DNA of 64,000 nt. Origin: Isoetes taiwanensis. Its lineage: Eukaryota; Streptophyta; Lycopodiopsida; Isoetales; Isoetaceae. The notes beneath the pieces were generated by a model. That model was not told the origin of the DNA. It made no database searches and saw only the letters and a list, made by a program, of their open reading frames with translations. Below, in pieces: positions 33,112-56,900 of this stretch (position 1 is its first letter; every line of letters begins with the position of its first letter). The stretch lies in assembly GCA_021234155.1 (NCBI GenBank), contig JAJEKV010000032.1, positions 10,484,099 to 10,548,098 on the forward strand, written 5' to 3'. The position numbers were made by a program, and so were the translations under genes.

Positions 33112-33188
33112 TTGAGCCCATCATCCTGGGGAACTGCTTCAGTGTCAGCCCATTCAGGCCTGCGTAAGATGGGGATTTGCTCTATCAT
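33112..33188 (-). pseudogene. farnesyltransferase / GGTase-I alpha subunit, exon 1 fragment
   Basis: From the ATG at 33188 the minus strand reads MIEQIPILRRPEWADTEAVP and then QDDGL, ending at a donor (CTCAA|GTGAGT, phase 2). Plant protein prenyltransferase alpha subunits start with R-x-E-W-x-D-V-x-P-x-x-Q-D-D-G-P-N. The alpha subunit is shared by farnesyltransferase and geranylgeranyltransferase I, which lipidate CaaX proteins. The expected next exon (P-V-V-P-I-A-Y) is not found in the roughly 4 kb to its left. It appears to be an isolated first exon carried with its splice donor. Confidence 0.65.
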
Positions 33189-35410: not shown

Positions 35411-36129
35411 TATCAAGCAATTGGTCGCTTGCTAAGAAGTCAAAGTCAAAGCTGCAATCGCAGCGAAATAGAAAAGCATATAAATCTGAGACTGTAGTTA
35501 TTATTGGCATGAAAATGATCTTAATTGTTTTTATTCGCCGGGCCTCGATTCCTGGTGAAGGATGTTCCCTATTTTCAGTGTCCGGGGTGTCTGGTTCAGA
35601 TAAGTTGAATTCAATGTCTCTTCTAACAAGTAGCATTTGTTGAACAATCTACAGGAAATGCATTTCCACACACTTGAAAGCTACTCAAATTGTGAATATT
35701 AACTCGTTCAAGGATTGTTATATTCCCAATTATCTCAATGGGAAGCTCAATTTCTTCAATTAGAAGCTAAGGATCCGCAATAAGTGTATAATGTGCAGAA
35801 TAATTTGACAACTTGGTGAGTATCGTGCCAGATAACTTCTTTGACTATGTGCTCACGTGACTGTTGGTAGTGAAAAGGCGAGAACCCTTAACAATACAAA
35901 ATGGACGACCTCCCCTAGCTATGCCGTTGGAGCTATGGCAAGCAATCGACAAACCCAAAGGAGGGGAGGTGAGTAGCGGGGTTTTTAATGTTAGGACTAC
36001 GTCATTTCTACCGTGCAAAGTCGACTTCCAAGACGGAAAGGGGGCCAGGCGCAAGGGAGGGCAATAGAGTAGCAAGGTTTTGATCGTTGGGGTGGTCCAA
36101 AGGGCGGCACGTGAGTAGCAAGGTTTTTA

Positions 36130-36545
36130 ATGTTATGATTCCTTTAAATTCTATGTAGACTGCCGTAGGTTTTTTAATATTTTATGAAAATTCATGTAGA
36201 TTCTCATAGTTTCTCTTAGATTTTATGAGGTTCCCTTGGATTTTATGAAGATTACTCTAGATTTTCTAAGATTCCATCAAGGTTCTTCTAGACTCTCAAA
36301 GATTGTGTGAAGATGCCCTTAAATTCTCTTAGATTTTATGAGATTCCCTTGGCTATAAAGAGGCCCCTAGATTCTCTAAGAAATTTATGAAGATTCCCTT
36401 AGACGCCCCTAAAGTCTCCAAGATATTATGTAGATTCCCTTAGACCCCTTAGATGTTTTGAGATTGCCCGAGATTCCAACAAGACTCCTTTAGATTCTCG
36501 AAAATTTCATGAAGGTTCCTTTAGGTTCCCTTAGATTTTATGAGC
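36130..36545 (+). repeat. degenerate AGATTC-type array
   Basis: Many iterations of TAGATTCTCTTAGATTTTAT and variants without a fixed period. It is bordered on both sides by GGTGAGTAG/GGTGAGTGG-type sequence (also near 35958 and 36110). Confidence 0.65.
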
Positions 36546-36549
36546 TGCA

Positions 36550-39500
36550 AAGGGGGGCAGGTGAGTGGTAGGGTTTGCCTACGGTGCAAGTTGCTATTTG
36601 TAATTTTTCTAATTGAGTGCCTCTAATAATCTGCAAGACATTCTAAAGTATCTAGTGAACGTTAAGATTATAGGTGTTTATTTATGGTCAATGATTTGAG
36701 ATGCTCATTCATGCTGATTGACCAATAATTGACCATTAACCAACTTTCTGAAGTAGCAGAGTTAAAGTCTATAGGTTTAATTTATGAACCAAATCAATAA
36801 TGCAAATATGTGGTATGGAGGCATCTAAAGCTCGGGTCGATCATGACTATTAAGAGCTTTGATAACTATGAGGATCATGTTGGACATTGATTCTTAGAGG
36901 AGATGACTCGAGAACCTTAGAAAATTTGTTGGTGATATTGAACATTAGCAATTTTATGTGAGCTCGAGACATTTTCTATGTAGTTGGGCGTGTTTTGTAA
37001 ATGGTTTGTGCATAAGAACATACTATGTGTGTGCTATAGTATATGGTTGTAACTGAAGTTCAACCTTTTATCTTTTGATATGAATAACATATTTAGGTGT
37101 GAATTAAGTTTCCCTATTGATCATCTACGACTCATTGCAGCTATATAAGGTTGAACTTGTAAAAAGTGCAGCAAAATTTGCAATTAGAATAACTGGGCAA
37201 TATTCAATTTTATTGTAATATGGGGCAAGGCTGTCTTGAAATAGCAGCTATGTGCAAGATTATTTGATTGATTAAAAGTGGAGAATGGATAATATGATGC
37301 CAATGTGTGTCAGCTCAGACGTTGGAATTCTTATTCAGATAGTTTGCTAGTAGAAAAGCAATATGATATAAAAAGCAAAAAAAAAAATGGTCAAGCTTCT
37401 ATGAAAGACCATGGCAACATGAAACAATATGAGGCAAAATAAGTCATACTAGGCGTGATAGTCACTAGATTAGAGAATGAGCATGATTATAAATCAGTAA
37501 AACTTGGGCGGGGATTATCGCAATTGCAGTTGGAGTAATCATGTTAATCAATGCAATGGATTATTTTACCTTCAAAAACCTATATGGCGGTGTGCAAGCA
37601 ACATTGCATTTTGTGAAATCTATCATAGAACCTCACTACTTCGTGATTCAACATGTATGATCGATTCTTTATTTGCTTGTGTGAATGTTTCTCCACTTTC
37701 AAGCAAGAGTTCTTAATATTGGCGGATAGTATATCTTTGTACGACCTGATCTTTGGACACAACCCTATCCCAAGAAGTGCACTCCAAGTCCATGGAAGTG
37801 TTTGTCGTTCACTCCATGTTCTGTCACAACAAAAGCAAGTGGAATTTTAGAAGCTGCAGATTTGAGATAGTTTATGCATCAATTATTTCAAAATTTGTAA
37901 GCCCATACACCACGATTTTCATCGGCCTATCAATGAGTTTTTATGATAGCAGATAAGAACGTAAATATGTACCTTGCATCATTGTAAATTTAAAGTTTAA
38001 GGCCTCTGGAGTGAACAAAATCTGCAAGAGCTCAGCAAAGGCTCACCTTCTTGGTTTCAAATTACCCTGTAAAACAATAAGTTAGTATTGGTTGTAAATT
38101 AAGGTCTCTTTTGTTAAGTTGACTGCTAACCACTTGGTCGCATCCAACCATGTTCTCCACTTGTAGCAAGTGCAGTGTACAACATTGCATTGACTTCCAA
38201 TTCTATGCATCAGTAGAGTTCTTCGAAACAAATGCATCTTAGATTTGAATCGAGGCTTGTTTCTTGAATGAATTGCTCGATGATGCTTCCAGCAAAATGA
38301 TTCCAGGTATTCAACCTGATTCTACAATCTGAAAATGGTGAATAATCACAAAACCCACTTGTTAACCATGTGATCCTTTGCATGGACCAATAAATAAAAT
38401 GCGCATTGAATTACCTAGCAGCACGTTGAAGAAGTGAAGCACGCATAATGACAGCTTGGTGCTGAGAGCTCTATGAGATGCCAAGCCACGCCTAGAAGAT
38501 AAGAGCAGAGAAGAAGATACATCTGATGATCTGAGGTGGGATTCAGGAAGCTGTTTCCAAAACACACAATATAGTTAAATTCGTTGGCTTGTAGATGACC
38601 AAAAGGCTGAGAATACCTTGCCATCATGAATATCCATTAACGCCTTATATATTAACGCCTTATAATGGCCTACATTGACCATGCTAACCAAGAGCATGTG
38701 CGCAAAAGTTGGCCCCTTATTTGCCCCCGATTTTTTCTCCCTCTCTACAACCTCTGCATGATCAGCTTTTATAAGTAGGAAACAACAAAGAACAACTTTA
38801 CACAAAGTCGAAAATTACCTGGAGTAATGCTGGCAGAAAAATTTTCCTAGTGCCGTTCAAATAGCTAGCACAATCAGCAATTGCAAATACGGTTTCTATG
38901 TTTCAACCACTCGTTTACCATAATCCTAGATAATGAAAGGCATATGAAGTAATAGCATGGTAATTTCCTGTAGGGTTTGCCTTCGCCACCAAATAAAGAA
39001 TCTGAACATGTGGCAAAAAGAATGAAAGAATCTGCACATGGCAAAAACAATGAAATTGCATAAAACATGATGTTTTAAAAAATACAATAATTGTAAAGAT
39101 GGTAGCAATTTAAATCATATGAAACTACATCAGGCTTATAACTCAAGCGTAAAAACAATAGAAGGTCCTGACACTCTAAGAAGGTAATCCCAAGAACACA
39201 TGGAACACGAGCGCACTAGTGTGGTATAATATAGCAGCTGCAGACCCATGTCAATCTGCATTTTAGAATCAAACATATCTAGATTAAAGACATCTTTTAC
39301 CATGCTTAACGAAAGCACACAAGCATCTACTCAACCCATCTAATTGTAAATCACATGCCAGGCTTACTTCATGGCATATAGAATCTTGCCTGTATTTTGC
39401 ATGCATTGAGCAAGATGCGTGCTCCCAATGAATCAAAGTACAGATCCATGAATCATAAGCCCATGTAGTTTGCATGTATTGAGCAAAATGCCCATTCTCA

Positions 39501-39750
39501 CTGAACTAAGGCACTAAGCAGTAAGAACACTACCAAATTCATGGCTGATAATATGAGCATGTAAACTAGAATATGTTTCAGCTTATATCCACAAATAATT
39601 TGCAAGGCACTACATGCCAGATGGCCTGCCTTAATAAGCTATCTAGTTGCCTTAATAAGCAAGCAACCATCCGTTAGATAGACCCCTGAAGCAGCCTCCA
39701 TAGATGCTTCAATTTTGAACATGCATGCGCTCCATAGAAGTTCTCATTAT
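36550..39750. other. no assignable gene
   Basis: Several frames of 60-76 codons exist on both strands (37504-37956 plus, 38362-38805 minus), none with a recognisable motif. A plus-strand stretch at about 37508-37660 is hydrophobic at first (IIAIAVGVIMLINAMDYF) and could be a membrane-segment exon, but no gene could be named. Confidence 0.3.
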
Positions 39751-39759
39751 GCTTCATAT

Positions 39760-40830
39760 TTATGCTAAGCATTTGGAAAATGGTAAGCCTAGCATCATTT
39801 GTGGACCTTCCAATGATCTTTCCGATACATGTTCTTGCACAGAGAATAAAACTTTCTTTTAGAAGATATGGCCATATTTCTACCTGAATGTGATCTTTCC
39901 AATGGACGTTTTTGCGCAAAAAACATAGATTAGTTCTAGGAGTTATGGTCATATTTCTACTCGACTGTAAAACTATAGCAGCAGGAACATTCCCTCATTT
40001 GGCAATGTTGTTGACACATTTATGCTAAGAATTCAGAGAATGGACACCTACCATCAATTGTAGACCTTCCACCGAGCTTTCCGACGGATGGTCTTGCGCA
40101 GGAAACAAAGCTTTGTTTTGGGAGTTATGGCCATGTTTCTAGATGAGTATAAAATTGTGGCAGCAAAGACATTGCTTGATTTGACACTGTTTTTGGCCCA
40201 TTTATACTAAGAATTTAGAAAATGGACGCCTAGCATCAATTGTAGACCGTCCGGTGATCTTTCCAATGGACATTCTTGCGCAAAAAATAGAGGTTAGTTC
40301 TAAGAGTTATGTCCATATTTCTACTCGACTGTAAAACTGTGGCAGCAAGGACATTCCCTCATTTGGCAATGTTAACACATTTATGCTAGGAATTCAGAGA
40401 ATGGACACCTAGCATCAATTGCGGACCTTCCAGCAACCTTTCCGACGGATGTTCTTGCGCAAGAAACAAAGCTTTGTTTTGGGAGTTATGGCCATGTTTC
40501 CGGATGAGTATAAAATTGTGGCAGCTAAGACATTGCTTGATTTGGCACTGTTTTGGCCCGTTTATGCTAGGAATTTGAAAAATGGACGCCTAGCATTAAA
40601 TGTAGACCTTCCGGTGATCTTTCCAATGGACGTTCTTGTGCAAAAAACAGAGGTTAGTTGTAAGAGTTATGGCCATATTTCTACTCGACTGTAAAACTAT
40701 GGCAGCAAGGACATTCCTTGATTTGGCAATGTGTTTGACACATTTATGCTAGGAATTCGGAGAATGGATGCCTAGCATCAATTGTAGACCTTCCAACGGC
40801 CTTTCCAACGCATTAGCTATTTATTTACTT
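39760..40830 (+). repeat. satellite-like array, ~180-bp monomers in an A/B alternation
   Basis: The anchor GACC.TCC recurs at 40063, 40245, 40424, 40605 and 40787, giving spacings of 182, 179, 181 and 182. Monomers alternate. Type A has TCCGGTGATCTTTCCAATGG and CTACTCGACTGTAAAAC; type B has TTTCCGACGGATG and GAGTATAAAATTGTGGCAGC. The real unit is therefore an A+B dimer of about 360 bp. A broken B-like and A-like pair starts the array at 39804-40040. The frame at 40419-40694 lies inside it and is not a gene. Confidence 0.85.
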
Positions 40831-41083
40831 CTTTTAACTTGTTCCCATGTATTGGCAGGTGTATTAGCAGAAGCGCAAGCTAATATGCGAAGCATCTTAC
40901 AACATTTCTTGACCATACCGGAAAGGTCATTTTATTGTCAATGTCTGCAAGTATAACAACTGCTGTAGCATTGTGTACCATGCAATAACTATCAGGTGTT
41001 CACGATGTTGTGCATGGCCTTTCCGTCAGCCTGTTCTTTTTTCCTGATACTATTATATAAGCCCTGCATGACGACAGCTAGGG

Positions 41084-41611
41084 ATCTTGGTTTTGTCCTG
41101 AAGATTATGCTGGCATTATAGATTAGCCTAAAATTATGACAGAAGATAAAACGATTAATTTACCTGGTGATGGGCTAGTTAATGCAACAACAGCAGGACT
41201 AGATTCCAGAGAATGCAGTTCTTGCAGTGGCAGATCCCTATAAAAATAGGTAGTTCAACAAACTTAGCATAAGATAATAAAAATTGTATGCCTTACATAT
41301 AGATGTAAAAAAAACAATTTTGAAAGATTTGCAATCTATGAGCCAAATCAATGCACCTTTAGCATCTTCAGCAGTATCAAAAACGGCCATTTGGAACGCC
41401 AAGATATTTAAGACTCCACTTAGTCTTGTATAGATCCTTAAATATATCTGTCTTTTGGAAATGGACACTTTGAACTCATGAATGCAAGCAGCGGCACAAA
41501 GAGACCAGCTGTATTGCATCTTGGTTTTGTATTGAAGACTATGCTGGCATTATAGATTAGCCTAAAGTTATGACAGAAGACAAAACGATTAATTTACCTG
41601 GTGATGGGCTA
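41084..41611. repeat. 93-bp direct repeat spaced 434 bp
   Basis: 41084-41176 and 41518-41610 are near-identical (ATCTTGGTTTTGT to TACCTGGTGATGGGCT). On the minus strand both carry the end of an exon-like segment and its splice donor (CCATCACCAG|GTAAAT). The left copy belongs to an open exon-like block at 41164-41237. Confidence 0.8.
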
Positions 41612-42053
41612 AGCAAGTAGCAAAATCCAATCCTAACCTTACAAATTGATTGCACCACAGAAAATTCAACCTGTATCAAACAAGTGTAGAACTTGGCATT
41701 ATGTCAGAGAGGCGGTTTTGAATGGCATGGATCGAGAATGACGAGCTAGGACTTGAATAACATTATATTTTAGCAAGACTAGAGACTAGCTTATTGTAAT
41801 GGGCTATGGCTTGCCATAACTCAAAAGTTTTCAAATTTACAACATCTAATGACATAACATTATCCAGCAACTTAGCTTATTGCAATGTACTATTCTTGAC
41901 ATAACTTCAAGTTTTCCAGATTTATAATAACCCATAATGAATTGGGTACTAAATTTGGCATACTTTTAGAAAGAAAAGGACGAGTAAAGTAGAAGTGGCA
42001 AAAATGACATCGACTTCTTAGTTAGAAACTCAGACACACATACCGTAATGCAT

Positions 42054-42731
42054 CGAGGATAGCTGGGCCAGCAAGCACATCACCACTAGCTGCCACCATG
42101 ACTGGATGAACCATTATAGTTGTAAGCATCCAAATGTAAATTGCCGCCTGCATTAGAGTAGTAAGAATCTACACAGGATATTAGTTATAGTTTTGATAAC
42201 GGTCAGCATATTTCTAAAACAATAGGATAGGTGAGGTTACTAGAGCAAACCCTAAAATTGTGAGATCTCAATGTGGCAGATCGCCCCAAATGATTTTCTC
42301 CGTGGGCCAACATCCCAGTTTTGACCTGAGTTATCAGTTCAATAAGCGTTGGAAATATGTGCAGTAATCTAATTTGCAGGCAGTTACCACATTCACGAAT
42401 ATATCGCTCAGCACTGATTCCATTTGCCGTGTAACAAAATCCACTGGGCATGGCAAACAAGCTACATAAATGAGCACCATAATGTTTCGAATCAGCATTG
42501 GATAAACTTACGTTTTGCATTAATAGGACCAAACAGAGAAAATACATGAACACCTAAAGTATTCTGAGCGGTAACAGATGTTATTGCAGTGCAACAATAG
42601 GCGCCGGGGGCAGCACATGCCTTCATGTCTGCTTGAATTCCTGCCCCAGCACCAGAATCAGAGCCAGCTCCTGTGAGCACGCAGAGTACCTTTATTTGCC
42701 CCGACTCTACGCGGCAACGATTGAAGCCATG
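42054..42731 (-). pseudogene. TH1-type HMP-P kinase exons (thiamine biosynthesis), fragment
   Basis: Four minus-strand exons carry N-terminal ThiD homology: 42554-42731 ([20 protein letters not shown] and [11 protein letters not shown]), 42388-42461 (PVDFVTRQMESVLSDIFVNV), one starting at 42325 (VKTGMLAHGENH) and 42054-42147 (PVMVAASGDVLAGPAILDAL). In plants TH1 joins HMP-phosphate kinase and thiamine-phosphate synthase in one plastid protein. The third block diverges from the family after VKTGML and its donor is unclear. The rest of ThiD and the whole ThiE half are not found in the 10 kb downstream. Intron structure is kept, so this came by DNA copying, not by retroposition. It is a fragment and unlikely to be active. 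Confidence 0.75.
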
Positions 42732-44458
42732 CTGCAACCAATGAGCTTTCGTGATTTTCAGGTGAGCCATCTTTCCACTGCGCCAAATCTGTGAAGATTT
42801 ATATGTTCCTGAATCATTTCCTTGCAAGGGTTTCAAATACATACCAGGCAAATGAATCAAAAACTTTAATCCCCGACAAAATGCAACAACTCAATTTACA
42901 ATCCCACATTTGTATCACAGGCCAAGAGATTCAAAGCATTGCAACACAAAAATGCTGGTCTAATGTTGATGTACCTTGCAGTTCCTGTAAAACTATTCAA
43001 TGATCCATGATAGAAGTCTTGATGCATGATGTGATCCACCCTGAAAATGCTGCAAGAAGATCAAACGAGAAATTGGCCTAGTCATGATTCTTGTGATGAT
43101 GCAAATAGAAGAAGGCAAATTAGAAACGTTGATCTAATCATTGCAATACAGAGTAAATGAAAATATCATCAGTGCAAGAAAAGACACATACCATTTGCTC
43201 CAAGCAATAGACATTGGCAAATTGCTCTGCTAGATTGCCAAAATGCTTTTTTCTAGATTGCTCACACTCCCTGGAATGCCATTTTCTTGTCTCCAGCAGG
43301 CTCCATAAACTCTAGTTCTGCAAGAAGATATATAATGCTTCTTTAAGCAAGATGGAATCTGCAACAAATACATTTTGCATCAACATTTTGCATAAAAACT
43401 CACCTACATTGATGAAGCGCTTCTATAATATTAAAATGTAGACCTAGCTATTTGTCATTCTGTAGCTACCATGTTGAACATATACTCCATCCTGCCAAAA
43501 AAAAGAACTCATTTTTGCTCAAACTAAACTGTGAAAATCAGAATATTTGCTACTGGAAATGCAAATAATTTGCAGCAAATGACAGTTGACATCAAACGTA
43601 ATAAAGTAATGATGGAAACATGTCTGTAAAAAAAAATTGTCTTTTCATGCGTCCTCACAGACCACACGGCCCCTGCTTTGGGGTCTGTGAACCAGGCCAC
43701 ACCACTGTTTTGCGAATCATGCCCATTGACCTTACAAACTTGCAAAGCATAGACAAACATTCTACGTATCCCATAGAAAAACAAAAGAGTCTAAAATACC
43801 TAGTCTTAAGAAGCAGGCAAAGCAACTCCAATGGCGGGAATGACATTATCTACTACATCTTCTGTGCATTTGTCAATTGTTCCTGTAGCTTTGCAATCGC
43901 AAAGATCTTGCAGCGGCATAAAACCCAGAACCAGATATACCTACTTCAAGCTTCAAGAGCACCTTTTATCATGCCCCTGCAAGAAGCTATAGACCGACGA
44001 CCAAGCAAAAGGAAACAGAGGTGGCGAAGTTCAGAGTAAGAGCGGAAAGGTTCATCTCCATTCAAAGCTGCCATTGATCAACCGAATCACAATAGAATAC
44101 CACAATCGGGAACCACAGTAGGAAGAAGGTATAGCTAATTAAATGAGCAACCATAAAAGTAAACCAAAAAAGGCAATAATACAAAGATGATAAGATGGAC
44201 TGGAGCACAAAAGGCATAACACAAACTTACACGGATGCACTAGAAACAAGATGGAAAGGAAAAATTAACGAGAAAGCAAAAGAAATATGAGCATTCACAT
44301 ATCCGATTGATCCCAATGCTATACACTTCTTGATCAAAATACAAAGAACAAAGAGTAAAATGCGTGTTCACAAAAAAACGCCATAGGGATCATACGCTTT
44401 ATGGATCAAACGGAGTTCAAACAAACTAGAAGAAACTAATAAAATGAACATACCAAGC
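42732..44458. other. no assignable gene
   Basis: The frame at 43620-44039 (139 codons, plus) and its minus-strand shadows have no recognisable motif. The rest is AT-rich. Confidence 0.3.
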
Positions 44459-44809
44459 TCAACGCTTTCCACCACCACCACCAAGCTTGGGACCTTTACC
44501 AGCGGGACCCTTCTTAACAAAGACCCTTAACTTTAGTATCCGCTTAATTCGACCCTTGATTTCCTTCAGAGCAGCTTCTTCACCGGCAAGCAACACGAAC
44601 TTCGGCCGGCATGGGCATCCTTTTTATCTTTGCTTTCGGTAGAGGGCGATCCATGTGAGCTTGGCGGGGCGGAGCACTGTTATGGAAGTAGCTCTTGCAT
44701 TTTGAATTGATGAAGAGAAAAACGTGAATCACCCCCTCACAAAACGAATGCCACGGCTGGATAGATCTTCGCCCCGGGTGAAGCGACAGAGCTCCTTCTT
44801 CAACACCAT
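44459..44809 (-). pseudogene. ribosomal protein eL24 retropseudogene
   Basis: eL24 is a 60S subunit protein. The minus strand starts MVLKKELCRFTRGEDLSSRG at 44809, then IRFVRG with a frameshift, SSIQNARAT, LRPAKLTWIALYRKQR, EEAALKEIKGRIKR and the C-terminal GPKLGGGGGKR with its stop at 44459-44461. About 40 internal residues (the K-K-R-R-R-x-x-K-K-P-Y-S-R-S region) are deleted and there are at least three frameshifts. No introns are seen across regions usually split, so it is probably a processed copy. It lies directly beside the terminal block at 44.86 kb and reads away from it. Confidence 0.8.
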
Positions 44810-44859
44810 AGCTGCTCCCCGCGAGATGGGATTTGATGGAGAAATCGAATCAGAGGATA

Positions 44860-45125
44860 CCAATTTGGGGCTTTTGTTGTGGGCCGTTCATCTTAGAGAT
44901 GGACGGCCGAGATCAATCTGTACCAATGTTTTGGTACACCAACAAGAGGGGTGCTTGGGGAGTTACGAGGTGGCACCGTCTGGACCGTCCATCTCAAAAG
45001 ATGGACGGCCGAGATCAATCTCTACCAAGATTTTGTGGCATAATCTCTACACCATTTGAGACTCTACATCATTTGTGGCACCCAATATAATTGTATATAT
45101 ACAAGTCTTTGTACTATGAGTGAGT
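44860..45125 (+). repeat. terminal block (copy at 45 kb)
   Basis: Contains TTGGGGCTTTTGTTGTGGG, two copies of ATGGACGGCCGAGATCAATC (near 44898 and 45001), GAGTTACGAGGTGGCACCG, then ATATAATTGTATATATACAA and GTCTTTGTACTATGAGTGA. It combines the GACGGCC block of the 34.5- and 50.7-kb copies with the ACAAGTCTTTGTACTAT end of the 28.9-kb copy. That shows both belong to one terminus type. Confidence 0.65.
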
Positions 45126-45129
45126 GTAC

Positions 45130-48100
45130 GAAGTCGAATATACATACATTGAGAAGTATAAATTTTCCAAATTTCTATAAGGTTTCCACATTTACCAACA
45201 TTCTATTAAGACTACCCAATATTCCTGAGAGATTGTATAAGATTCTAAGTTAAGAGCTGTGGTCTTTTTACTACCAAGAAGCAAGGGAGCACATGGTCAA
45301 AGAAGTTATTGACAGTATTGACACCAGATTCTCAAATTATTCTGTACATTGTACACTTATGAGAGAAAAAAAATTGACATATTGCGGTCTTACCAACAAA
45401 AGAAATCACATGTGCCTTTTGCAAGCCTATCAATGAGATAAAAGAAGATATTGGCAGGATCCGGCCACACATATAAAGCTAGAAAAAGTCGCATAGACAA
45501 AGTGACAAAATCCACTTCCAAAATCCACTTCTAAAACCGACTATCTTATAAAGAAAGCCACAAAAAGCATCCATCGGACTTTTCTCCAGCGTGCCACATC
45601 GTCACCCCGCCTTCTAAAGTTTTCACATTAGCCTACATCTTTTACATGCAACACAAGCGACTGATGCATATGGCAAGGAATAAAGGCACAGGCCAAAAAT
45701 TGCCAAGACCCAAATAGAAAAATCTGAATAGTTAACAAACGCATCTTACCTAATTTCTCAGGCCGGAACATGGATTTTTACTGTCGCAACAGAACCATAT
45801 TTCATTTTTTTACAGCTGGGTTTTGACGGAGAAGAAACTTACGGATCCTCTTGACACACACTATATCAAAGCCAAATCCTCAGCAAGCAGAGCCCAACTA
45901 AGTGTGTCTTCAAATTCAGCATGATTCAATAACAGGCGTCCTTGACAAAGTCGTCCAATTTCATTTAAGCATAAAACTTTGCCATCTCATACACAGACAC
46001 ATAATAATATTTGACAGGTCCACAAAACTTAGAGACCATGTCCAATATAACACTCTAAATTCCGTTAAAAAAGGCTGTACAACACATAAAGCACGTTTCA
46101 GAGCTCGTTTTTGCAACAAATCTAACCTAGCCATTTCAAGAAAAAAGCATAGAAATTAGTGGGACTTATGAGTTAAAAATTAAAAGAATGATCAATCACC
46201 AAATTGAGAAACTTGACGGATCCATAATTGGAATCCAAGCAAAAAAATGGCTTGGCTAGCACACTGCCCAGAGAAACTTCGAGAGACTACTTTGAAAATT
46301 TTGGACGTTGTGAGTGCTTCCAAGGCTTAGGTTTTTTCAACTTTTTTGTTTTATGCCCGGAAAAAACTAATTTAAGGTTCATCACCTGCATCAACAAAAC
46401 TGTCATATTCTGGCTGCATTCTGGTAATAACAGATCACAAGCTATCTACATGGTCATGGAACCTTGAAAAAGATCCTCCAACAATTATCTTCTCAAATAA
46501 GGGATAAAGCATCCAATAGGTTTAATTACACAGACCTCCAAATAATTGCATAGAAAACTGGTGAGAGTCTGCTGCACAGCATACAGATAACATAGTAGAG
46601 AAGAAGTAACAATTGCACTTACACTTCAAGAGCTTCTGATTTCTGAACGAATAAAATATTGCCATTCATTTCAGTATGCTCAGGAGATCACTTCCTTCTA
46701 CAAACAAAATGACCTCAAGATCAGAGATGAAACTGGATGGACATCCAACTTTAAAGCAGTTATCAAGCAAAATGCATAGATGATGAAAGGCATCTTAATT
46801 TATCACCTGATAAATCTGGAAGCAAGAAATAGACAACAAATATACATGAGCCTTTTTGGGTTCTAAAATTTAGTTATTTGATATCTATTAAACATGCTAG
46901 AAATTTAGATCACAGCAGCAAATCTAAGCAAATGATACAGTTTATCAAATTACCAGATAGTTCCATCATCCGCATCATCTACGCAAGGAAGTAGGAAGAG
47001 AAATTAAAAACATGCCACAACCTCATGGCATACACAACAATATTTGCGACCTGGATGGATAGAATGTTAATGCAACCACATTGTATTTATAATTTTAATT
47101 CTTGCATAGCTCATATGTGCAAGAATTGAAATTCAAATGTGCAGGGGTCATTCGTTTACACAACACAATGGCATAAGAACACCTACTATATGTTTTCAGA
47201 ATTATACGAACTTCTGCAAAGATGAAGGTGCAGCAATTTATAAATTTGAAAGGCACAAAAGGCCACAGATGCGGCTACAACATATTCACTAACTACTTGC
47301 TAAAGCCTAGACAACGCCATAGCCCCAATTGCTGGAAAGATGCCTTAGCTGATCTACTTCAACAAAGACACCACCTTCCATGATACAAAAAAGACACCCG
47401 AAATGATTATGCGGCTATGATATTCTCAAGTGCAGAACGAAAGAGATCAACCAAAAACTCAAATGTGTTCTTCGTAGAGAAAGCAAACGTAAAAAAATAT
47501 TACCTGTTGCCAGAGTATAATTGCCACTCTTTCTGTTCGCACCTTCAAAGTTGTGGCCATAGTCAACTTCGGATGACCCTGCAACATGGAGGCACTGTTA
47601 AAAAGTCTTGCATACTAGAATCTAAATTTTGTAAATACATTTTAGAATTAGACAGCCAACAAACACCTTGAAAACAAAGATAGAAATGCATTAAGGCCAA
47701 CCAGAATTCATGTGAGCTTGCTAAAGCAACAAAGGGAAAGCTTTAGAGGCAACAAAAACTTCAGAGAATGCTGGAAAATACCTTCACGTCCATGTTCAGC
47801 ATGCCGCTGCAACCATCCACTGGCCCATATTTCCCACAATAAGCCCTTTGAAAATGTATAACTTTTTCTTTCATTGACTGATAATATGCATAAACATTCA
47901 TCTGGTGAAGAACATATCCTACAGAGTCTCAGATGGGTCGCCATATCTGGCCAGATGAATATTGCCAGAGAGAATAGATCGGAGCAAGAGAATCTGGCCC
48001 AGAACATGTCCTACGGAGTCTCAGAGCCCGATTTACATGGGTCGACATATTTGACCCAGATGAAAATTGGCAGAGAGAATGGATTGCCGGAGCTCTAAAT

Positions 48101-48550
48101 CTCCTAGAAGCTCCGCCATGGCCACCATAGCCATAACAAATGCATAGAAGAATGCAAAAAAGTTTTGTTGATTCTATGAAGTGAGTCGCCATCCTAGGAT
48201 CTAGGATCTGTCTCTTTGCTAGGAATGGAAAAAAGCTCTGTAGATCTGCAAAAACACAAAATATATCAGAAGACCATAGCCATCATTTATTTGGCGGCAA
48301 GAGTACTCAGGCAAAGCGAAGCTCGGGGATTTGACTTGCACCTAACTATCGATCATGGAGAGATTGCTCAAATTAGGCTCTTGGCAGACATAACTATTAG
48401 GAATAAGATTTGTACTTGGCAACATAGATGCAATTTAATAGAGTAAAGCCAATATGTGAGCTAGAACTTGAACCTTTACATCTTTTGCATGCAGAGTGAT
48501 GCAAATATGCAAGAAATAATATTCCATCAGCAGACTTTAAACAATTGCAT
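45130..48550. other. no assignable gene; one 92-bp duplication
   Basis: A short array like AGATTC repeats follows the terminus to about 45245. A direct duplication with period 92 lies at 47910-48093 (GAACATRTCCTACRGAGTCTC start). A small minus-strand exon-like block at about 47513-47589 has AG/GT borders and reads GHPKLTMATTLKVRTERVAI, not recognised. Otherwise nothing was seen. Confidence 0.35.
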
Positions 48551-48552
48551 AC

Positions 48553-50185
48553 CTTATCAGCTGCCAGCTCTGCAATCAATCGGGCACAACGCTTCAATGA
48601 AGAAATCCTTGTTGGGGGATGCTGGGATGGGCCCTCCAGCATTTCATCTAAACTTACTTGAGAATTTCCTGGTGGCATAGAGCCACGACTTGCTAAATTG
48701 GTGGGAGTCACTGGCTTGCTCTTCTGTGGACATCCACTCAGTTTACCTGCCGATAAGGCAGCTCCAGAAGCTCCAAGAGATGTTGGAGGTTCATCTGTAT
48801 AAGCACTTACTAAAACATACTCTCGCTCAATGCAGTCCAGAGAATCAGCAAGTGTCACTGATGACAAAAAACATAAGATCATCTTAAAGGATGCTACTTA
48901 GTCAAAAAGAACCTATTTGAATGTGGTTTTACAAATCTTACCTCCCCTAGAAGAGTCAGCATGATCATGTATTCTTTCAGCATCTGCTGAAAAATCTGAG
49001 CTCCGATTTCTAAATGGCTTTGGACTTTGGCTATCGTGTTTCAATGACAACCTCACACTTAGATCTTTGGACCCGTACTCTGGCTTACCTGATGGAGGGC
49101 TCCTTGAGAAGATCCTCATCTCAATTGGGGGACACTGCTCTAGGTGCCGCTTAGGGGGCACGCCTTCTACTGTTTGCGGCTGGTGCCAAGAATTTTTATC
49201 TAACTTCAATCTGACAATTTGAATTCATTTCCTAGGAACTTTTAGAAAACTTAGGCAATTTAATAATCATCTTTGCAATTCTACATAGCATAAAAGAGTA
49301 AACCAGATTGATCCTACCTCATAAAGCTGTGGCTAAAGAACTCCTCAAACGAAAGACGCTCCACTGAATAATTGACCCCAAAAAAGTTCATCGGTAAATG
49401 CCAATACATCTATTATGCAACAGTCTAGAATTTCCATGCCAAGGTTGCAATTGGAGGTAGTCAAGCACCTGGATTCCTACGCAAGAGCCTGCGGCATATG
49501 TCGATGCAATCAGGGTGAAGTTCAGCCTTAAGGGCTTCCGAATCGTGCATTCCTCTCCCAACATAAAGACGAGGCTACATTAAAAAACAAATAACCTTTA
49601 GGAATAAATAAAAACTTTATTAGGAGTCATGTATGGAGAAAATGGATACCTGAGACCACCAAAGCAGAAACCGTATTGAACGCCAGTCTGAGTTCTCAGC
49701 CCATCTTTTGAGCATTGGAAATAAGAAGAATAGAAAACCAAGCATGTTTGGCACCAGATAAATTATCACAGCTAATAAATATAGAGAAGGACCTCCATTG
49801 TGACCCAACCAGTTCTTGACAGTCCGTGTCAGGCCTGTTGGGTTGTTCCAGGAATATGTATAACAGACAGAGAGAACAATAATCCAAATAACTGAAGCAA
49901 CTAGCTTTATAAAAAGCTGTAGAAATCCTGATAATCTAAGACTGTGGTATGCTTGCACACTCATTACAATATCCAGCGCCCCTAAAAATAGAGCACAAAA
50001 GAGGCCCCAGTTATAACTCGGACAACAACAAAGCATTCAACACAAGACATAGCTATTCTTTCTATACCTTGCAGAAATCGAAGACCAGCAACTGTGATGA
50101 AAATACTGAGCACTTTCTTAAAAACGTCTGAATTAAAAACTGCAGTTGGTGAACCATCTCCATGCCAGGAAATAATAATCATTGC
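48553..50185 (-). CDS. chimeric gene fragment: callose synthase C-terminal part fused to ATG1 kinase tail
   Basis: Six minus-strand exons join with open frame and matching phases: 50068-50185, 49650-49981, 49469-49574, 49318-49373, 48942-49210 and 48553-48857 (donor AAG|GTATGC, so more may follow). The first two encode callose synthase membrane segments (FNSDVFKKVLSIFITVAG, NNPTGLTRTVKNWLG, LLWWSQ). The third opens with callose synthase PRLYVGRGMH and, inside the same exon, turns into the ATG1 kinase end (SEALKAELHPDCIDICRRLL). The fourth gives VERLSFEEFFSHSFM, and the last two give the Ser/Pro-rich ATG1 linker with DSLDCIEREYVLVS. Callose synthase is a plasma-membrane beta-1,3-glucan synthase; ATG1 starts autophagy. 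Neither catalytic domain is present. There are no stops, so a fusion transcript could be translated. Confidence 0.8.
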
Positions 50186-50256
50186 CTGCAACATAATCCC
50201 CTTGTGTTGAGATTACATCAGATCAAACAAAAAAGAGGAAGAATGGGTGATAAATA

Positions 50257-50520
50257 CCTGCTACATTGCTGATAAAATTTCTGGGTAAGGCCGTTGGCAA
50301 CTACGGTGGAAGATTTGGAATGCATTCCGCAGACCTTATGTCTCCGGTGGTAGTGTATAGGCATGCTAATATCATCCTTGCATCCTTCTGCCTGGCACAT
50401 TGCCACGAAGATAGAAGGCAGATGCACCCAAATCACGCTCAGCATGCTTGAGAGCTGTGCTGATCCATGAAAAATGAGCGGATCCGCCATCAGGCGCCAG
50501 TTCTTCTGCAGCTCGGCCAT
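50257..50520 (-). pseudogene. SBP-box (SPL transcription factor) exon fragment
   Basis: The minus-strand frame from 50520 has the first half of an SBP DNA-binding domain: MCQAEGCKDDISMPIHYHRR, HKVCGMHSKSS, NGLTQKFYQQCSR. Zn site 1 (C, C, C, H) is complete. In site 2 the Cys expected in R-F-C-Q-Q-C-S-R is Tyr. The domain stops at a donor-like AG|GTATTT at 50257, close to where SPL genes have their intron, but the second-half exon is absent. Joining this donor to the next callose synthase exon (50185) would shift frame into a stop. It lies within 100 bp of the 50.6-kb terminal block, pointing away from it. Confidence 0.75.
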
Positions 50521-50599
50521 AGCTGTGCGCCGAACACAAGCAGCAGGAAGAACGATTCTCCAGAATTTTCGGTGTAGGGCTTGAAGAAGACAAATCGCT

Positions 50600-50815
50600 C
50601 AGGGATCGAATTGGGGCTTTTGTTGTGGGCCGTTCATCTCAGAGATGGACGGCCGAGATCAATCTCTACCAACATTTTGGTACACCAACAAGAGGGATGC
50701 TTTGGGAGTTGCGAGGTGGCACCGTCTGGACCGTCCATCTTGAAGATGGACGGCCGAGATCAATCTCTACCAACATGTTGGTAGAGCTCATATAATTGTA
50801 TATATATGAGTGATA
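50600..50815 (+). repeat. terminal block (copy at 50.7 kb)
   Basis: Nearly the same as 44860-45060: TTGGGGCTTTTGTTGTGGG, two GATGGACGGCCGAGATCAAT copies, GAGGTGGCACCGTCTGGACC, then ACATGTTGGTAGAGCTCATA and ATTGTATATATATGAGTGAT. It is the right end of the unit carrying the SBP, callose synthase and ATG1 fragments. Confidence 0.7.
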
Positions 50816-50894
50816 GTGATATATATCTATCTATTATCACTCATATATATACAATTATATGAGCTCTACCAACATATTGGTAGAGATTGATCTC
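50756..50894. repeat. long palindrome joining two inverted termini
   Basis: 50756-50815 and 50832-50894 are inverted copies differing by one base and a 3-base indel, with a loop of about 16 AT-rich bases. Each arm is the outermost part of a terminal block, so two termini sit end to end. It could be a hairpin transposon end, two abutting insertions, or a palindromic assembly join. Confidence 0.85.
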
Positions 50895-51060
50895 TACCGA
50901 ATCCATCTTTGATAGGCGGTCGGGCAGTGCCACCTCTTAACACCCCAAGCAACCCCCTTTTGGTAGAGATTGAGGTGTCGCCGTCGGGTGGGTCGAATGT
51001 CTTGAGATCGGCGACCCAGCATTTAAAGCCCCTTTATTTGGGGCTTTTGTTCTAAACCGA
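50832..51060 (-). repeat. terminal block, inverted copy
   Basis: Read on the minus strand this is the same terminus: AAAGCCCC near 51035, a GTTGCTTGGGGTGTTAAGAG stretch, GAGATCAATCTCTACCAATA, then the AT-rich end at 50832. The GACGGCC inverted pair is more decayed than in the other copies. It faces the trehalase sequence on its right. Confidence 0.6.
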
Positions 51061-52690
51061 TTAGATTTAAGAATTTATTCGGGCCATCGATAGGGGAAAA
51101 AATCTCGACGTGTACCATTGATTCATTTCATACGTGTGCGCCCGATGGAGCTATTCTATTGGAAACCACAGATGGGTTCAAGCCCGTGAACAGGCATTCC
51201 CGCTTTGGAGCTCGTCGAGATGCGTAAGTCTATGATGCCCATTCCATAAATGGCATTTGCAAGATCCGGTTCGTCCCCCGCCTTCGTATTGTCCGGTAGG
51301 TTGCACATGGATGTCATGGCCCGAAGCAAATGTCGTTCACCGGGTTAATAATCTTAGCTTGCTTTTTGATATAAAAACCGGATCTATATCGTAATCGCTC
51401 TTGTGCACCACACAATGGCATGCGGTGGCAATGTCATTTGGGAGTGAAGCATCACCGTGGCTTTCTTCGTGATGGAAGATAGGTAACGATTCCACTAATT
51501 GCAGCACCATATGAAATTCAAATAATCAAACCTGGCGAAAATCACGAGGCATTCGTTCCCTATTTGGCGGGGAATCCAAGCCCACCTACGGCATCATCAT
51601 GATCCGAAAGTTACGGCCGGTGCTCCCGGACATTTAACGTAGTATTTTGCAATTAGGTGTGGCGTTTTTTCGGTTTTGAGGCGGTGTTTTTGCTAAGCTG
51701 CGGTAGTGGAGTCGGTGGAAGATCCAGATCGAGATGCCGCCGTGGCGGGTTTGATTTTCACTTAATTGGGAGCAAATATTTCTCTTCAATCGAAAAAGCG
51801 GGTAAGTCTACGCTTATCTTTTCTTCTCTCTTCAAGTTTTTCTTATTTGTTTTGCCTCATTTGTTGATTCATGACGTTTAATCATGCATTCTCCTGCGCT
51901 GCCCATATGCAAGAATGCATGGCAATGCTTCTTGAGATCGCCCCTTAACGAGGAAAAGCATATGTCTTCTCGTGCCTAGGGTTCAATTCTCCAATCTCTT
52001 TTCCCTCGTGCAAAAGCGATCAATGTGTATATGATGAATCTTTCTCTCATATCTTCTTGGTTATATTTTGATATTCATGGAATCGGATCTTAGTAATATG
52101 TTTTGATCATCATAGCATGGCTCAAATGATTTGAGATTTTAGCCATTCATACCGATGATAATACTTAATTTTCCATCATAAACCCTTGCATTCGACCAAG
52201 GAACTAGAGGTCTTCTACCTTTGGAGTAATGAGCAGATTAATGAAAAATCACGTAACCGCAAAACCCCTTATTTGTTGTAAGAAAATTATCCTATGTCCC
52301 GCCAAGACGTAAGCTTCTAGGTTCTTCAAGAGTCAAAGAAATTTGAAATGTGAATTATAGAGCATGTGACCTTACGGTCTTATATCCATTTCAATAATCC
52401 TCCACCGAAGTAAATTAGTCCGGTTCCTATTAAGATTCTTGGTTTGAGGTGCCCGCACAAATAAATTGTTTGATATCTTTGGATATTTTTATTTTCAAGT
52501 GTCATTAGGGTAACATATCCAAGCATTGGCGAGACAAATCGAAGTTCATACCGCGGTTTTGTGAACTCGTTTTTCCCTCTCTCTTTTTCCTTCTTTCATT
52601 GCATTGCAAAAATTCTTCCGTCCGATCTTCCTTTTGCAAATGCATTCGTACTAATATAAGTGTTGGATAATATATCAAGGTTTTGCTTAC
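51061..52690 (+). other. sequence between terminus and trehalase, no named gene
   Basis: No exon could be identified. A donor-like GCGG|GTAAGTCTAC at about 51800 ends a transcribed-looking segment, with a pyrimidine-rich stretch after it. This may be 5' leader and first intron of the trehalase copy. Confidence 0.3.
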
Positions 52691-52699
52691 GAGTATTGA

Positions 52700-55560
52700 T
52701 CTCTTTGGGAATTGATTTATGCGAGAGAAACTCGGGCAATTCTTGAAGGAGTACTTTGCACTGCCTGTGAAGTGATCTATTGCCAAGAACTTTGGGGGAT
52801 TATGTTCCAACGGAAGGATTTTTGCCGTTGGTTAAGAATAGGAAGATCGGGGAATGGGCCCTAAACGTCCATTCCTTATGGCTCAAACTTGTGCGCAAGG
52901 TATCGGATGGCGTCCTTCACCATCCCGAGCAAAGACACGTTACTTCCTTTGCCTCATGTAGTTGTCGTTCCCGGAGCTCGGTTTAACGAGGTCTATTCAT
53001 GGGATAGCTACTTTGGATAATCAGGTGATTTATTTGTTTCTAATCCGTTCGGTTAAATTATGGTTCCTTTTCTTCTAATATGCAACCTGTTTGTGACAAA
53101 AGGGGCTTGATTGTGAGCCGAATCTTTGGACTTTGCCGGAGGAATTGCTGAGAATCTTCTTTTGTTAGTTGAAACGTATGGATTTGTTCCTAATGGAGCA
53201 AGAACATACTACACGAATCGCGGTAATGATCTGTTACTTAAACGTTTTGTATCTTCTCTTTGTGTCCTTTCTCGCAATATTTTATATCGACATAAAAAGA
53301 CATGTGGCATGATCCGTCATTATTACAATTTTTCCATGTCATTGTAAGTTGATCTTTTTTGTAAGTTTATCTTTTTGTTATGTTTGTGTAGCCAACCTCC
53401 TCTCTTTGAGCCAAAGGATTCGAAGTCTTATATGAAGCCTCTGGTGATCGGGCTAGTGGAAAGGGCATTTCTTGTGCTTTTGCAGAGTACAATTTCTGAT
53501 GTTCGGGTATATCCGGAATTCCTCTATTATCTAATAGTTTGGGATATTTGCAAATATTAAGCTCGCCCTGCAATTGCACAGATCTTCACGAAGTCCGGAT
53601 AGGATAACAAAGGTATTGAGCATAGGCTTACCCGATACTGCGCAAAGTGGGATGAACCTCGTCGAGAATCCTTCACCATTGTAAGAATGTGTGTTTATTT
53701 ATTACCTTTTTTATTCAATGCCTTCAACTAACTAAGCTACACAGATGATGAGGAAATAGCAAAATACTTCTCCAATTCAAAGAGCCAACAGAGGCTTTAC
53801 CATGATATTGCCACAGACCGAATCCGGGATTTTAGCTCCGGATGGATGGGGTAAATTGGGACAAATTTGTGGATCCGATTCGACTTTATTGGTCAATCTA
53901 ACGTAAAGCCGTTTTCGGTGATGAGCAAAGCATCTTCGTACCTTGAGGACCTCACGTATCATTCTGTCGACTTGAATGCATTTCTAATGCGGTGTGTAAA
54001 ACTTTTTTTTCTTAATTCAATATATGGTTTGTAGATTTTGAGCCTCATGTCCTATGTCCCGCCAAGAAAATTATCCTACGTCCTTCACCATCTGAGCGGC
54101 AAAGACGTTACTTCCTTTGCCTCATGTAGTTGTCGTTCACGGAGCTCGGTTTAACGAGGTCTATTCTTTGGGATAGCTCTTTGGATAATCGGTGATTTAT
54201 TTGTTTCTAATCCGTTCGGTTAAATTATGGTTCCTTTTCTTCTAATATGCAACCATTTTGTTACAAAAGGGGCTTGATTGTGAGCCGAATCTTTGGACTT
54301 TGCCGAGGAGGAATTCTTTGAGAATCTTCTTTTGTTAGTTGAAACGCACGGATTTGTTCCTAATGGAGCAAGAACATACTACACCTAATCGCGGGTAATG
54401 ATACGTTACTTAAACGTTTTGTATCTTCTCTTTGTGTCCTTTCTCTCGCAATATTTTATATCGACATAAAAGACATGTGGCATGATCCGTCAGATTACAA
54501 TTTTTTCCATGTCATTGTAAGTTGATCTTTTTGTAAGTTTATCTTTTTTGTTATGTTTGTGTAGCCAACCTCCTCTGGCCGAGCCAAATGATTCGAAGTC
54601 TTATATGAAGCCTCGGTGATCGGGAAGCTAGTGGAAAGGGCATTTCTTGTGCTTTTGCAGGAGTACAATTTTCGATGTTCAGGTATATCGGAATTCCTCT
54701 ATTATCTAATAGTTTGGGATATTTGCAAATATTAAGCTCGCCCCCGAATTGCAATGCGGATCTTCATGAAGTCCGGATACGAGGATAACAAAGGTATTGA
54801 GCATAGGCTTACCCGACTACGCAAAGTGGGATGAACCTCGTCGAGAATCCTTCACCACCTTGTAAGAATGTGTGTTTATTTATTACCTTTTATTCTGAAT
54901 GCCTTCAACTAACTAAGCTACGGGGATGAGGAAATAGCAAAATACTTCTCCAATTCAAAGAGCCAACAGAGGCTTTACCATGATATTGCCACAGTACCGC
55001 AGAATCATTTTGGGATTTTAGCTCGGATGGATGGGGTAAATTGGGACAAATTTGTGGATCCGATTCTCGACTTTATTGGTCAATCTAACGTAAAGCCGCT
55101 TTTTTGCGGTGATGAGCAGCATCTTCGCACCTTGAGGACCTCACGTATCATTCCTGTCGACTTGAATGCATTTCTAATGCGAGGTGTAAAACGTTTTTTT
55201 CTTAATTCAATATATGGTTTGTAGATTTTGAGTCGCTAACTGGTTCATCCCTTGCTTTGCCTAGATGGAAAGGAATCGGCCTTTTTGCAAAATTACCGGG
55301 AAGAAATGCGGATTCGCAAAGCACTTTAATCTCGTGAGGCGAAGATAGGAGGGTCATAATTAATTCTATCTTTCGGAGCGATGAGAAGGGGCAATGGTTT
55401 GATTATTGGCTTCCTTCTAATTGTCACAACCCCGAGAACGTCGATTGCCAAAAGATGATCTATACGGGGCGTTATTGAAAGTGTTTAGGGGCTTCCATCG
55501 TTTTGCTTATTCTATACTTTCGATCTTGGTGATATGCAACTTTGAAGATGGCCACCGAAC
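52700..55560 (+). pseudogene. trehalase (GH37) pseudogene with internal tandem duplication
   Basis: Trehalase cleaves trehalose to glucose. Plus-strand pieces follow family order: GYVP-type start ([39 protein letters not shown]), [38 protein letters not shown] at a donor, QPPL after the next acceptor, SQQRLYHDIAT, then VDLNAFLM, KMERNRPFCKITGKK and DEKGQWFDYWLPSN. Frames are broken by many small indels. The PGARF signature and the GARTYYTNR signature occur twice because 52909-54042 is repeated at 54079-55232. GT/AG intron borders remain, so it arose by DNA copying. As it stands it cannot encode an enzyme. Confidence 0.85.
52909..55232 (+). repeat. tandem duplication of about 1.15 kb inside trehalase
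   Basis: 52909-54042 and 54079-55232 are direct copies, from GTCCTTCACCATC to TGTAGATTTTGAG, separated by a spacer containing TCCTATGTCCCGCCAAG, which also occurs near 52291. The copies differ mostly by 1-4-bp insertions and deletions rather than substitutions. Confidence 0.85.
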
Positions 55561-56440
55561 CGCGGTAATCCGGATGAAGTGCTCGGATCCGTAGGGATCA
55601 TGTTGCAAAACCGTCTCCGGGATGATACAAATGCCTCTATTTCGCCTTTTGTTCAGAAAATCAGTCGTTTCTGAGGTTAAAAAGCATACCGGATATGCTT
55701 GGTGCAAAAGTGCGGACTTCTGTCGGAGGATGGATCTATATGCTAGCTTAGGCATTTTGGAGAAACATCCTAATTGTTTTATCTGTAGATGCTCGGAGCA
55801 GATGCTTACTTATCCTGCAATGTTGAGGCACATGCTTACTCCAGTTCCTGCTATAACAAAGATATGGTAGACACAAGTTTCGATTTTGCAGATTTGTATA
55901 CTTAGTTGGAGTTGGACTGTATAGTTGAGGTATACGATGCAGGGGCAGAACTAAAAGTGGCGCAACTCCGACATTCGCACGTAATATCACCTCACTTGCT
56001 CAGTTCTTTTTTACAAGACCTAAGTCAGGATACTTATTTTAACCCGTTGCAACTGTGATGCCTTCTTTTCTCGGATGTCAAACCCTATCCAACTGTCTCT
56101 ATTTGAACAAAAAATATGGAACTTTTTCTTTCTTTTAGTATCAGAAACAGTTTTTAAATTAGTGCAATGTATTGTTGCCAGGCCTGATTATCTTATAATT
56201 TTCTTTAGGCCCCTCAATAGAAGTTCCTGGAAACGAGAATTTGGCCACTCCTGAAGCCAGTACATCGAGACAACCACTGAAAAGGATATATGAAAAGGGG
56301 ATGAGGAGTGATAGCAAGTTCTATGTTCGGCATAAGGAACATAAAGAACCCAAATCACATTCAAGTTGTGCAAAATCATTTGAACTCTATTTGAAGAGGT
56401 GAGTTTGACACAGTATTTTAGCTACAAAATGTTCCATATT
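55561..56440. other. no assignable gene
   Basis: Frames at 55622-55870 plus and 55507-55990 minus have no clear motif. The first 300 bases may be the decayed C-terminal part of the trehalase, but this was not secured. Confidence 0.3.
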
Positions 56441-56444
56441 CCAA

Positions 56445-56900
56445 TCCGTTTATGCCTAGAATTTATTTCCACGTCTTCATAAACCATAGCTCAGTAACCC
56501 ATTCATAGTACAAAAACTTGTATATATACACGTATTAGATGTGTGTTTTGTCATCCCATGCCCATGTTCATAGAGATTCATCCCAGCCGTCCAATCACGA
56601 CATGAAAGGCCAGGATAATGCCACCTCATTGAGGTGCATGGATGGCCATGATGGGCATGCATGGGCATGCATGGGAGCATGCACCACATCCCCAAAGCGT
56701 TGGATCAAAAGGGGAGAATAAATCCTAGCCCTTGATTTTTGTGAAGAAGGTGCAAGGAAGGTGCCAAAAAAAAAAGTTGGTGCAGCAGATCTCAACCGTT
56801 AGATTAAAAGGTGAGCATAAATCCTAGTCATTAACTTTTTAATATTAAATTGATTTTTTTCTTTTAAAGGAGGTGAGGTGGCACCCTCATTAATAAAAAG
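56445..56900 (-). repeat. terminal block, inverted orientation (56.5 kb)
   Basis: Read on the minus strand it ends ACAAGTTTTTGTACTATGAA, followed by a stretch like 28910-28965. Inside lie TCATCCCATGCCCATGTTCA, AGCCGTCCAATCACG, GCCACCTCATTGAGGTG and repeated GGGCATGCATGG. It is possibly the far end of the unit whose near end is at 50.83 kb. Confidence 0.5.

Follow-up and report, generated by a model that had tools for sequence, protein, structure and literature searches.

Fragments of SBP-box, callose synthase and ATG1 genes joined in a probable transposon cargo of the lycophyte Isoetes taiwanensis

How did pieces of an SBP-box (SPL) gene, a callose synthase gene and an ATG1 gene come to lie in a row on one strand of a lycophyte genome, two of them fused within a single exon, and does the resulting open frame serve the plant as a gene? 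The question arose from a stretch of 64,000 nucleotides of Isoetes taiwanensis (C1037:10484099-10548098, hereafter the window), in which a reading of the sequence alone (the sequence-only reading) had located these pieces at 48553-50520 of the minus strand. The window was compared with the genome as searched here, 1,658,258,908 bases in 1110 contigs; the accessible part of the genome paper describes an assembly of 1658.30 Mb in 204 scaffolds and 909 unplaced contigs, assembled from nanopore reads, with both nanopore and Illumina data used for polishing (PMC8566536). We consider the chimera to be most probably (probability about 0.85) the cargo of a non-autonomous DNA transposon with more than 1000 end motifs in the genome, put together by stepwise fusion and carrying a neutral open frame.

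The chimera of SBP, callose synthase and ATG1 pieces is genuine. Its coding stretch consisted of six minus-strand exons from 50185 to 48553, with GT-AG introns and in-phase joins (Table 1), which gave a stop-free frame of 1176 nt (392 codons), as the sequence-only reading had held. The half SBP domain named there was recovered with Pfam SBP at 5.6e-13 (49.4 bits, cut-off 27; profile positions 1-47 of 75). Its callose synthase exons were borne out by protein matches, the nine best showing 41-52% identity and several carrying the name of callose synthase or 1,3-beta-glucan synthase, and by a gene of the same genome 98.1% identical in DNA. The ATG1 exons were likewise upheld by Pfam MIT_ATG1 (1e-6, over the cut-off) and by two ATG1 genes of the genome, 94-98% identical in DNA. 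The claim of a fused exon without an intron at the join also held: the sequence was callose-derived to about 49543 and ATG1-derived from about 49542, both points lying inside exons of their sources. The description as a row of three sources stood for their presence and order, but not for their number or for the frame, as more than three sources contributed to a larger unit (element A, Table 1), and the SBP exon (50520-50258), when spliced to 50185, was out of frame and ran into an immediate stop.

The acceptor of exon 5 must precede 49210; an alternative AG before 49179 led to a stop. Compared with its parents, the ATG1 part lacked 81 bp in frame. The end of the kinase domain remained below the Pfam cut-off (0.0032 alone and 0.044 in the fused peptide), and the domain remnants comprised about 34 kinase-profile positions and 35 of the 128 MIT positions. 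No protein among the 35 found, with 8000 candidates of limited length scored, spanned more than 47% of the chimera query.

Table 1. Features of the chimera, its carrier and the neighbouring units (window coordinates).
Feature	Position	Strand	Evidence
Element A, carrier of the chimera (about 5.7 kb)	45094..50806	-	terminal motifs; copies aligned along length
5' terminal motif TATATATACAATTATAT	50790..50806	-	1305 exact copies genome-wide
Conserved 5' module with GGTAGAGATTGATCTCGGCCGTCCATC repeats	50589..50830	-	repeats in other copies too
5' segment carrying ATG at 50520	50416..50589	-	C1054 match
SPL (SBP-box) fragment, 3' end of exon and 5' part of intron	50217..50406	-	94.2% to C1058; Pfam SBP
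Hybrid intron, 5' SPL and 3' callose synthase, join at about 50217	50186..50257	-	pairwise alignments
Callose synthase fragment with introns	49543..50217	-	98.07%, gapless, to C1038 gene
Exon 1 (callose synthase)	50068..50185	-	AG/GT borders, in-phase join
Exon 2 (callose synthase)	49650..49981	-	AG/GT borders, in-phase join
Exon 3, fused callose synthase/ATG1	49469..49574	-	join between 49543 and 49542; in 6 copies
Exon 4 (ATG1)	49318..49363	-	AG/GT borders, in-phase join
Exon 5 (ATG1), 81-bp in-frame deletion near 49173-49179	48942..49210	-	AG/GT borders, in-phase join
Exon 6 (ATG1, start of MIT domain)	48553..48857	-	AG/GT borders; Pfam
Entire ATG1-derived stretch	48322..49542	-	94-98% to C908 and C1110 ATG1 genes
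Further segments common to C1034	46622..48321	-	48321-47575 and 46915-46622
Repeated 3' module (about 260 bp)	45106..45366	-	20 further places starting at window 45360-45366
3' terminal motif TAGTACAAAGACTTGTATATATA	45094..45116	-	1224 exact copies genome-wide
Element B, trehalase-bearing neighbour in head-to-head orientation	50844..56528	+	end motifs; Pfam Trehalase 1.4e-27
Element C, head-to-tail neighbour with RPL24-like and phosphomethylpyrimidine-kinase (ThiD-like) fragments	35378..45101	-	end motifs; Pfam
Element D	28888..34607	-	end motifs

The host genes had been copied at the DNA level with their introns, and the parents remain in the genome. The sequence-only reading had proposed, as a check on itself, to look for parental genes whose introns match; SPL, callose synthase and ATG1 genes of this kind were found, and its claim was left standing. 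Two callose synthase loci on C1038, whose exons corresponded to about residues 97-764 in plant protein P0001, were 98.07% (gapless) and 96.3% identical to window 50217-49543. The ATG1 parents, with exons from the kinase to the C-terminus, were located on C908 and C1110 (97.8 and 93.6% identity in the first stretch; 97.2 and 96.8% in the second), and an SPL parent on C1058, 94.2% identical to window 50406-50217, possessed both halves of the SBP domain. Introns of the captured pieces matched the parental SPL, callose synthase and ATG1 introns; since they were retained and parent-like, an origin by retro-copying was rejected. The SPL-callose synthase join falls within an intron, and the intron at 50186-50257 is therefore a hybrid. 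On the 5' side, window 50416-50662 was 94.8% identical to C1054, and the segment 50416-50589 had no Pfam match in three sense frames. Behind ATG1, the two segments shared with C1034 were 89.6 and 92.5% identical to it, and no Pfam match was obtained in three sense frames of 46622-48321.

The 5' motif of element A ended at 50806, with homology to other copies reaching about 50830, and its 3' motif ended at 45094. The element aligned lengthwise with copies on C935 (92.6%) and C322 (85.5%), which matched the window from about 50830 to 44935-44948. Exact copies of the two terminal motifs (Table 1) compared with 8 for the reversed 5' motif and 0 for the reversed 3' motif. The common outer edge of the 20 further places of the 3' module was the query end, three copies extending to 45084-45095, and GGTAGAGATTGATCTCGGCCGTCCATC repeats were also present at 44839-45035 and about 34487-34622. 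Members of the family had variable insides and, beside (TA)n tracts, 5' and 3' ends that recurred but differed from each other. A long direct terminal repeat (44839-45035 against 50589-50780) was considered and rejected, being the 5' end of element C, as was the palindrome at 50751-50899 as an inverted terminal repeat, being two 5' ends head to head.

Pairing of the ends was analyzed for the motifs among the matches listed on contigs C1-C130 (95 5' ends and 74 3' ends) by taking the next motif inward of each 5' end and skipping motifs within 100 nt. Among these listed matches, a same-strand 3' end came next for 48 of 88 5' ends (44 within 15 kb; median distance of the 48 pairs, 7.8 kb), compared with a mean of 12.3 and a maximum of 23 in 1000 label shuffles; the other 40 met an opposite 5' end (17), a same-strand 5' end (14) or an opposite 3' end (9). 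Some units adjoined each other directly: up to 150 nt away from the 95 listed 5' ends, the neighbouring motifs comprised 3' ends on the same strand (16), 5' ends on the opposite strand (12) and a single 3' end on the opposite strand. Two more units, chosen for a 5' and a 3' motif 5.7-6 kb apart, were scanned: one (L044) carried a piece of tyrosyl-DNA phosphodiesterase (1.2e-16), and the other (L045) had no Pfam match. At C1067:24636859-24656308 (L013-L015), two units of about 9.7 kb were arranged in tandem; by eye, the first contains an open frame on the minus strand that resembles a piece of a leucine-rich-repeat gene. Neither a transposase nor a Rep/helicase was detected in element A or linked to its ends. 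As a multi-copy mobile unit holding fragments of host genes, it is a Pack-type gene capturer in the wide sense, its mobility being suggested by the presence of copies at separate places.

Element A had neighbours of the same kind. Window 28888-58221 formed an array of about 29 kb with the same end motifs in head-to-tail or head-to-head joins; one more 3' end stood at 58199-58221. The window contained four exact 5' motifs and five 3' motifs, of which four were exact, where 0.02 and 0.00 were expected, respectively; two additional, weaker 5' matches overlapped 3' motifs. In Pfam scans of the units, which covered sense strands, the phosphomethylpyrimidine-kinase piece of element C scored 1e-10, and element D had no match in its three sense frames. 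The RPL24-like piece (44480-44838, minus strand) was detected in two frames at 0.00062 and 0.023, both below the cut-off; it directly follows element C's 5' module.

The order of assembly was examined in 20 regions around the strongest of 49 matches, shorter ATG1-only pieces (e.g., C1052 and C144) and short SPL-like pieces being left out of the comparison. All 12 copies compared, two of which are pieces in L024, shared the SPL-callose synthase join, at positions that coincided or differed by up to about 25 nt. The callose synthase-ATG1 join was shared by six copies (the window, C935, C322, C1056 and two on C1067), and the join of ATG1 to the C1034-like segment by four (the window, C935, C322 and C1056), in which ATG1 ended at about 4347; in both C1067 copies it ended at 5375. 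The 81-bp deletion was present in three copies, namely the window, C935 and C322 (slightly larger there as assembled), and absent from C1056 and the parents, the C1067 copies ending before the site. Because the joins are common to the copies in this nested way (12, 6, 4 and 3), a stepwise fusion is indicated. The callose synthase piece ended at parent position 4202 in family II (L023, L024, L027 and L028), at 4499 in C1084 and at about 4540 in the six ATG1-fused copies; L025 and L026 (C994) contained ATG1 pieces without the callose fusion. Of the sites at which the window and its callose parent differ, seven could be compared in L023, and three of them had the parental base; the L023 lineage therefore appears to have split earlier. 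The tree of the shared stretch was poorly resolved, with good support for 2 of 10 inner branches. The two mechanistic proposals of the sequence-only reading gained support from these data: capture by a transposon at the DNA level agrees with the kept, parent-matching introns and with joins recurring inside a repeat with conserved ends, and the birth of a new exon by fusion within coding sequence agrees with the same join in several copies.

The copies point to an order that began with the 5' module, to which SPL and then callose synthase were added, before ATG1 entered the callose synthase exon and joined it in frame by chance; another segment was then added, and the 81 bp were lost in frame afterwards. 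At each step the 3' side of the older element was presumably replaced or extended, with the 5' part staying in place, probably through the joint movement of array neighbours or through copying that overran an end. The open frame would then be explained most simply by the youth of the copy, and a function of the protein would be unnecessary.

In the opposite view, the chimera would be a functional novel gene that interferes with autophagy through a membrane-anchored ATG1 linker; this view takes its appeal from the intact 392-codon frame and the canonical splice sites. Three synonymous and five nonsynonymous changes separated the frame from callose parent A, and three and seven from the ATG1 gene on C908 (callose parent B, three and nine; ATG1 on C1110, five and nine). 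When pooled, 6 changes in 273 synonymous sites stood against 12 in 897 nonsynonymous sites (pN/pS about 0.6; Fisher P 0.40), and substitutions in coding (18/1170) and noncoding (14/679) positions gave P 0.46. The chance that 18 random substitutions create no stop was 0.43-0.51, so the absence of stops is likely to be due to chance. With pN/pS not different from 1, the SBP piece out of frame and the kinase and MIT domains mostly missing, interference with autophagy, which the sequence-only reading had suggested as an alternative to neutrality, found no support. Nothing in these comparisons points to a kept protein function, and we regard a working gene as very improbable.

It is still less probable, to the point of being hardly credible, that the joins are artefacts of assembly. 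Such a concern is reasonable for a nanopore-based assembly (PMC8566536, accessible part) in which many sister copies look full of errors, but the joins recurred at separate places, in 4 to 12 copies. The ATG1-bearing sister copies and C1084 were about 87-97% identical to the window, depending on the stretch. Differences from the window in L009, L010, L013, L014 and L022 clustered at CG/CHG and were accompanied by indels. Counted against the window, with a background of 0.22-0.27, mismatches near CG/CHG amounted to 42/52 in C935 (indel events, 21/23), 41/49 in C1067b (10/14), 62/78 in C1067a (15/19), 45/76 in C1056 (8/14), 13/27 in C1084 (6/7) and only 33/83 in C322 (7/28). For the parents, the corresponding values were 5/13 for callose parent A (no indel), 6/22 for callose parent B (3/6) and 0/11 for the ATG1 gene on C908 (0/2), and for the duplicated piece of element B they were 32/83 (14/21). 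C-to-T or G-to-A changes were a minority, 10 to 30 per copy. We infer that most of the differences in C935 and C1067 are base-calling errors at methylated cytosines; the CG/CHG pattern was weaker in C1056 and C1084 and slight in C322, to which this explanation applies poorly. It also cautions that, in an assembly built from nanopore reads, apparent divergence between copies may reflect miscalled bases where cytosines are methylated. All 13 differences between the window and the callose parent recurred in at least one other copy, and the window thus has no private substitution among them. Four other copies (C935, C1056 and the two on C1067) had one G fewer where the two genes are fused, and a genuine loss would disrupt their frame; the missing G adjoins a CG and may be a base-calling error. 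Because copies other than the window look error-laden, their frames cannot be judged.

To which class of transposon the carrier belongs is a separate matter, and the readings weighed here as Helitron and as terminal inverted repeat (TIR) element concern class only; the former is also compatible with the stepwise capture proposed above. The ends agree with the Helitron rule and with the TIR rule in part, and with neither in full. We give about an even chance to a rolling-circle Helitron-type element, which would capture genes by overrunning its stop signal and would also produce tandems. Just outside the motif, 12 of 16 5' ends read ..TATC, the exact edge being ambiguous in (TA)n flanks, and the recurring 3' end, ACTTG, was followed by TA tracts; insertion could therefore fall between A and T. 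The asymmetric ends, the head-to-tail units of about 9.7 kb and the richness of the genome in Rep domains point in the same direction, as does the stepwise capture described for maize Helitrons (PMC3288121, accessible part). Against this, the 3' end read ACTTG instead of CTRR, a constancy that proves nothing because the tails were collected by that motif. When the last 50 nt of six tails were folded, no stable hairpin appeared near the end, where a Helitron has a palindrome of 16-20 bp (10-12 bp from its terminus); with RNA folding parameters, the tail of element C had a 7-bp stem about 28 nt from the 3' end. The 5' and 3' ends shared about 11 nt in inverted orientation, TATATATACAA, which also speaks against a Helitron, and of the 1813 genome candidates for Helitron Rep domains (Helitron_like_N), all 150 scored were over the cut-off, with none tied to these ends.

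The same inverted TATATATACAA favours a Pack-type TIR transposon with TA microsatellites as its target (MULE-related, like SaTar, MuTAnT or TAFT), in which neighbours of an array fuse and move together; this assignment we hold tentatively and at somewhat short of even odds. It would account for ends beside (TA)n and for units joined both head to tail and head to head. Within the window, no end motif lay inside another unit, as in SaTar arrays (PMC5907723), and acquisition by tandem insertion and re-mobilisation has been proposed for Pack-TYPE elements in TIR superfamilies (PMC8903248; both in their accessible parts). The association with microsatellites and modular arrays was observed, although long (TA)n did not stand at every end. 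A long TIR (tens of bp) was absent and the 5' and 3' modules were unrelated, which weighs against this class, and no target duplication of 8-11 bp was readable in the TA-rich flanks. It is possible, though rather doubtful, that the units represent a group of lycophyte DNA transposons not yet described, which combines A|T insertion with TA-microsatellite arrays and builds serial multi-gene chimeras, some of them open and expressible; there, units would often stand end to end, so that the 5' part is kept and the 3' part swapped.

Known systems, as described in the accessible parts of the cited papers, resemble the Isoetes unit in different respects. Maize Helitrons likewise contain gene fragments gathered stepwise and common to related elements, and A|T insertion and a 5' TC, as in those elements, are possible in the Isoetes unit, whereas its ACTTG end without CTRR or a near-end hairpin and its position beside (TA)n set it apart (PMC3288121). 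Association with TA microsatellites is shared with SaTar of guayule and rice (PMC5907723), which also forms end-to-end arrays, and with MuTAnT of Medicago (PMC4486113). SaTar TIRs of guayule measure 40-250 bp (PMC5907723) and those of MuTAnT 47 bp on average (PMC4486113), and non-autonomous copies of the two are about 0.2-1.9 kb long (PMC5907723, PMC4486113); in contrast, the Isoetes units are mostly 5-10 kb, carry pieces of host genes and have no long TIR. The term 'gene fragments' did not occur in the accessible text on SaTar (PMC5907723), nor 'captured' in that on MuTAnT (PMC4486113). Pack-TYPE elements, including Pack-MULE and Pack-CACTA, are similarly non-autonomous and carry and shuffle coding pieces, but are defined in that paper by a TIR and a target duplication, neither of which was seen in the Isoetes unit (PMC8903248). 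A soybean CACTA transposon is also reported to bring gene fragments into new exon combinations (PMC1947982); it belongs to the CACTA superfamily, and the Isoetes ends do not read CACTA.

In flowering plants, transposons are well known to capture genes; the present case comes from a lycophyte. Our search, which reached few subscription papers and therefore shows little, found no publication on gene capture in Isoetes, and the word 'Helitron' was absent from the accessible part of the I. taiwanensis genome paper (PMC8566536). Within one genome, the several fusion steps can be followed from the parental genes through intermediates to the products; since the steps are readable, the way in which such elements collect several genes becomes testable.

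Further repeats were observed in the window. Element B contained a tandem duplication (52911-54042 and 54079-55232, 91.6%) in its trehalase-bearing stretch, and the interior of element C included about five tandem units of 182 bp (39895-40810). In addition, open frames at window 3285-8777 resembled, by eye, those of a Ty3-type retrotransposon.
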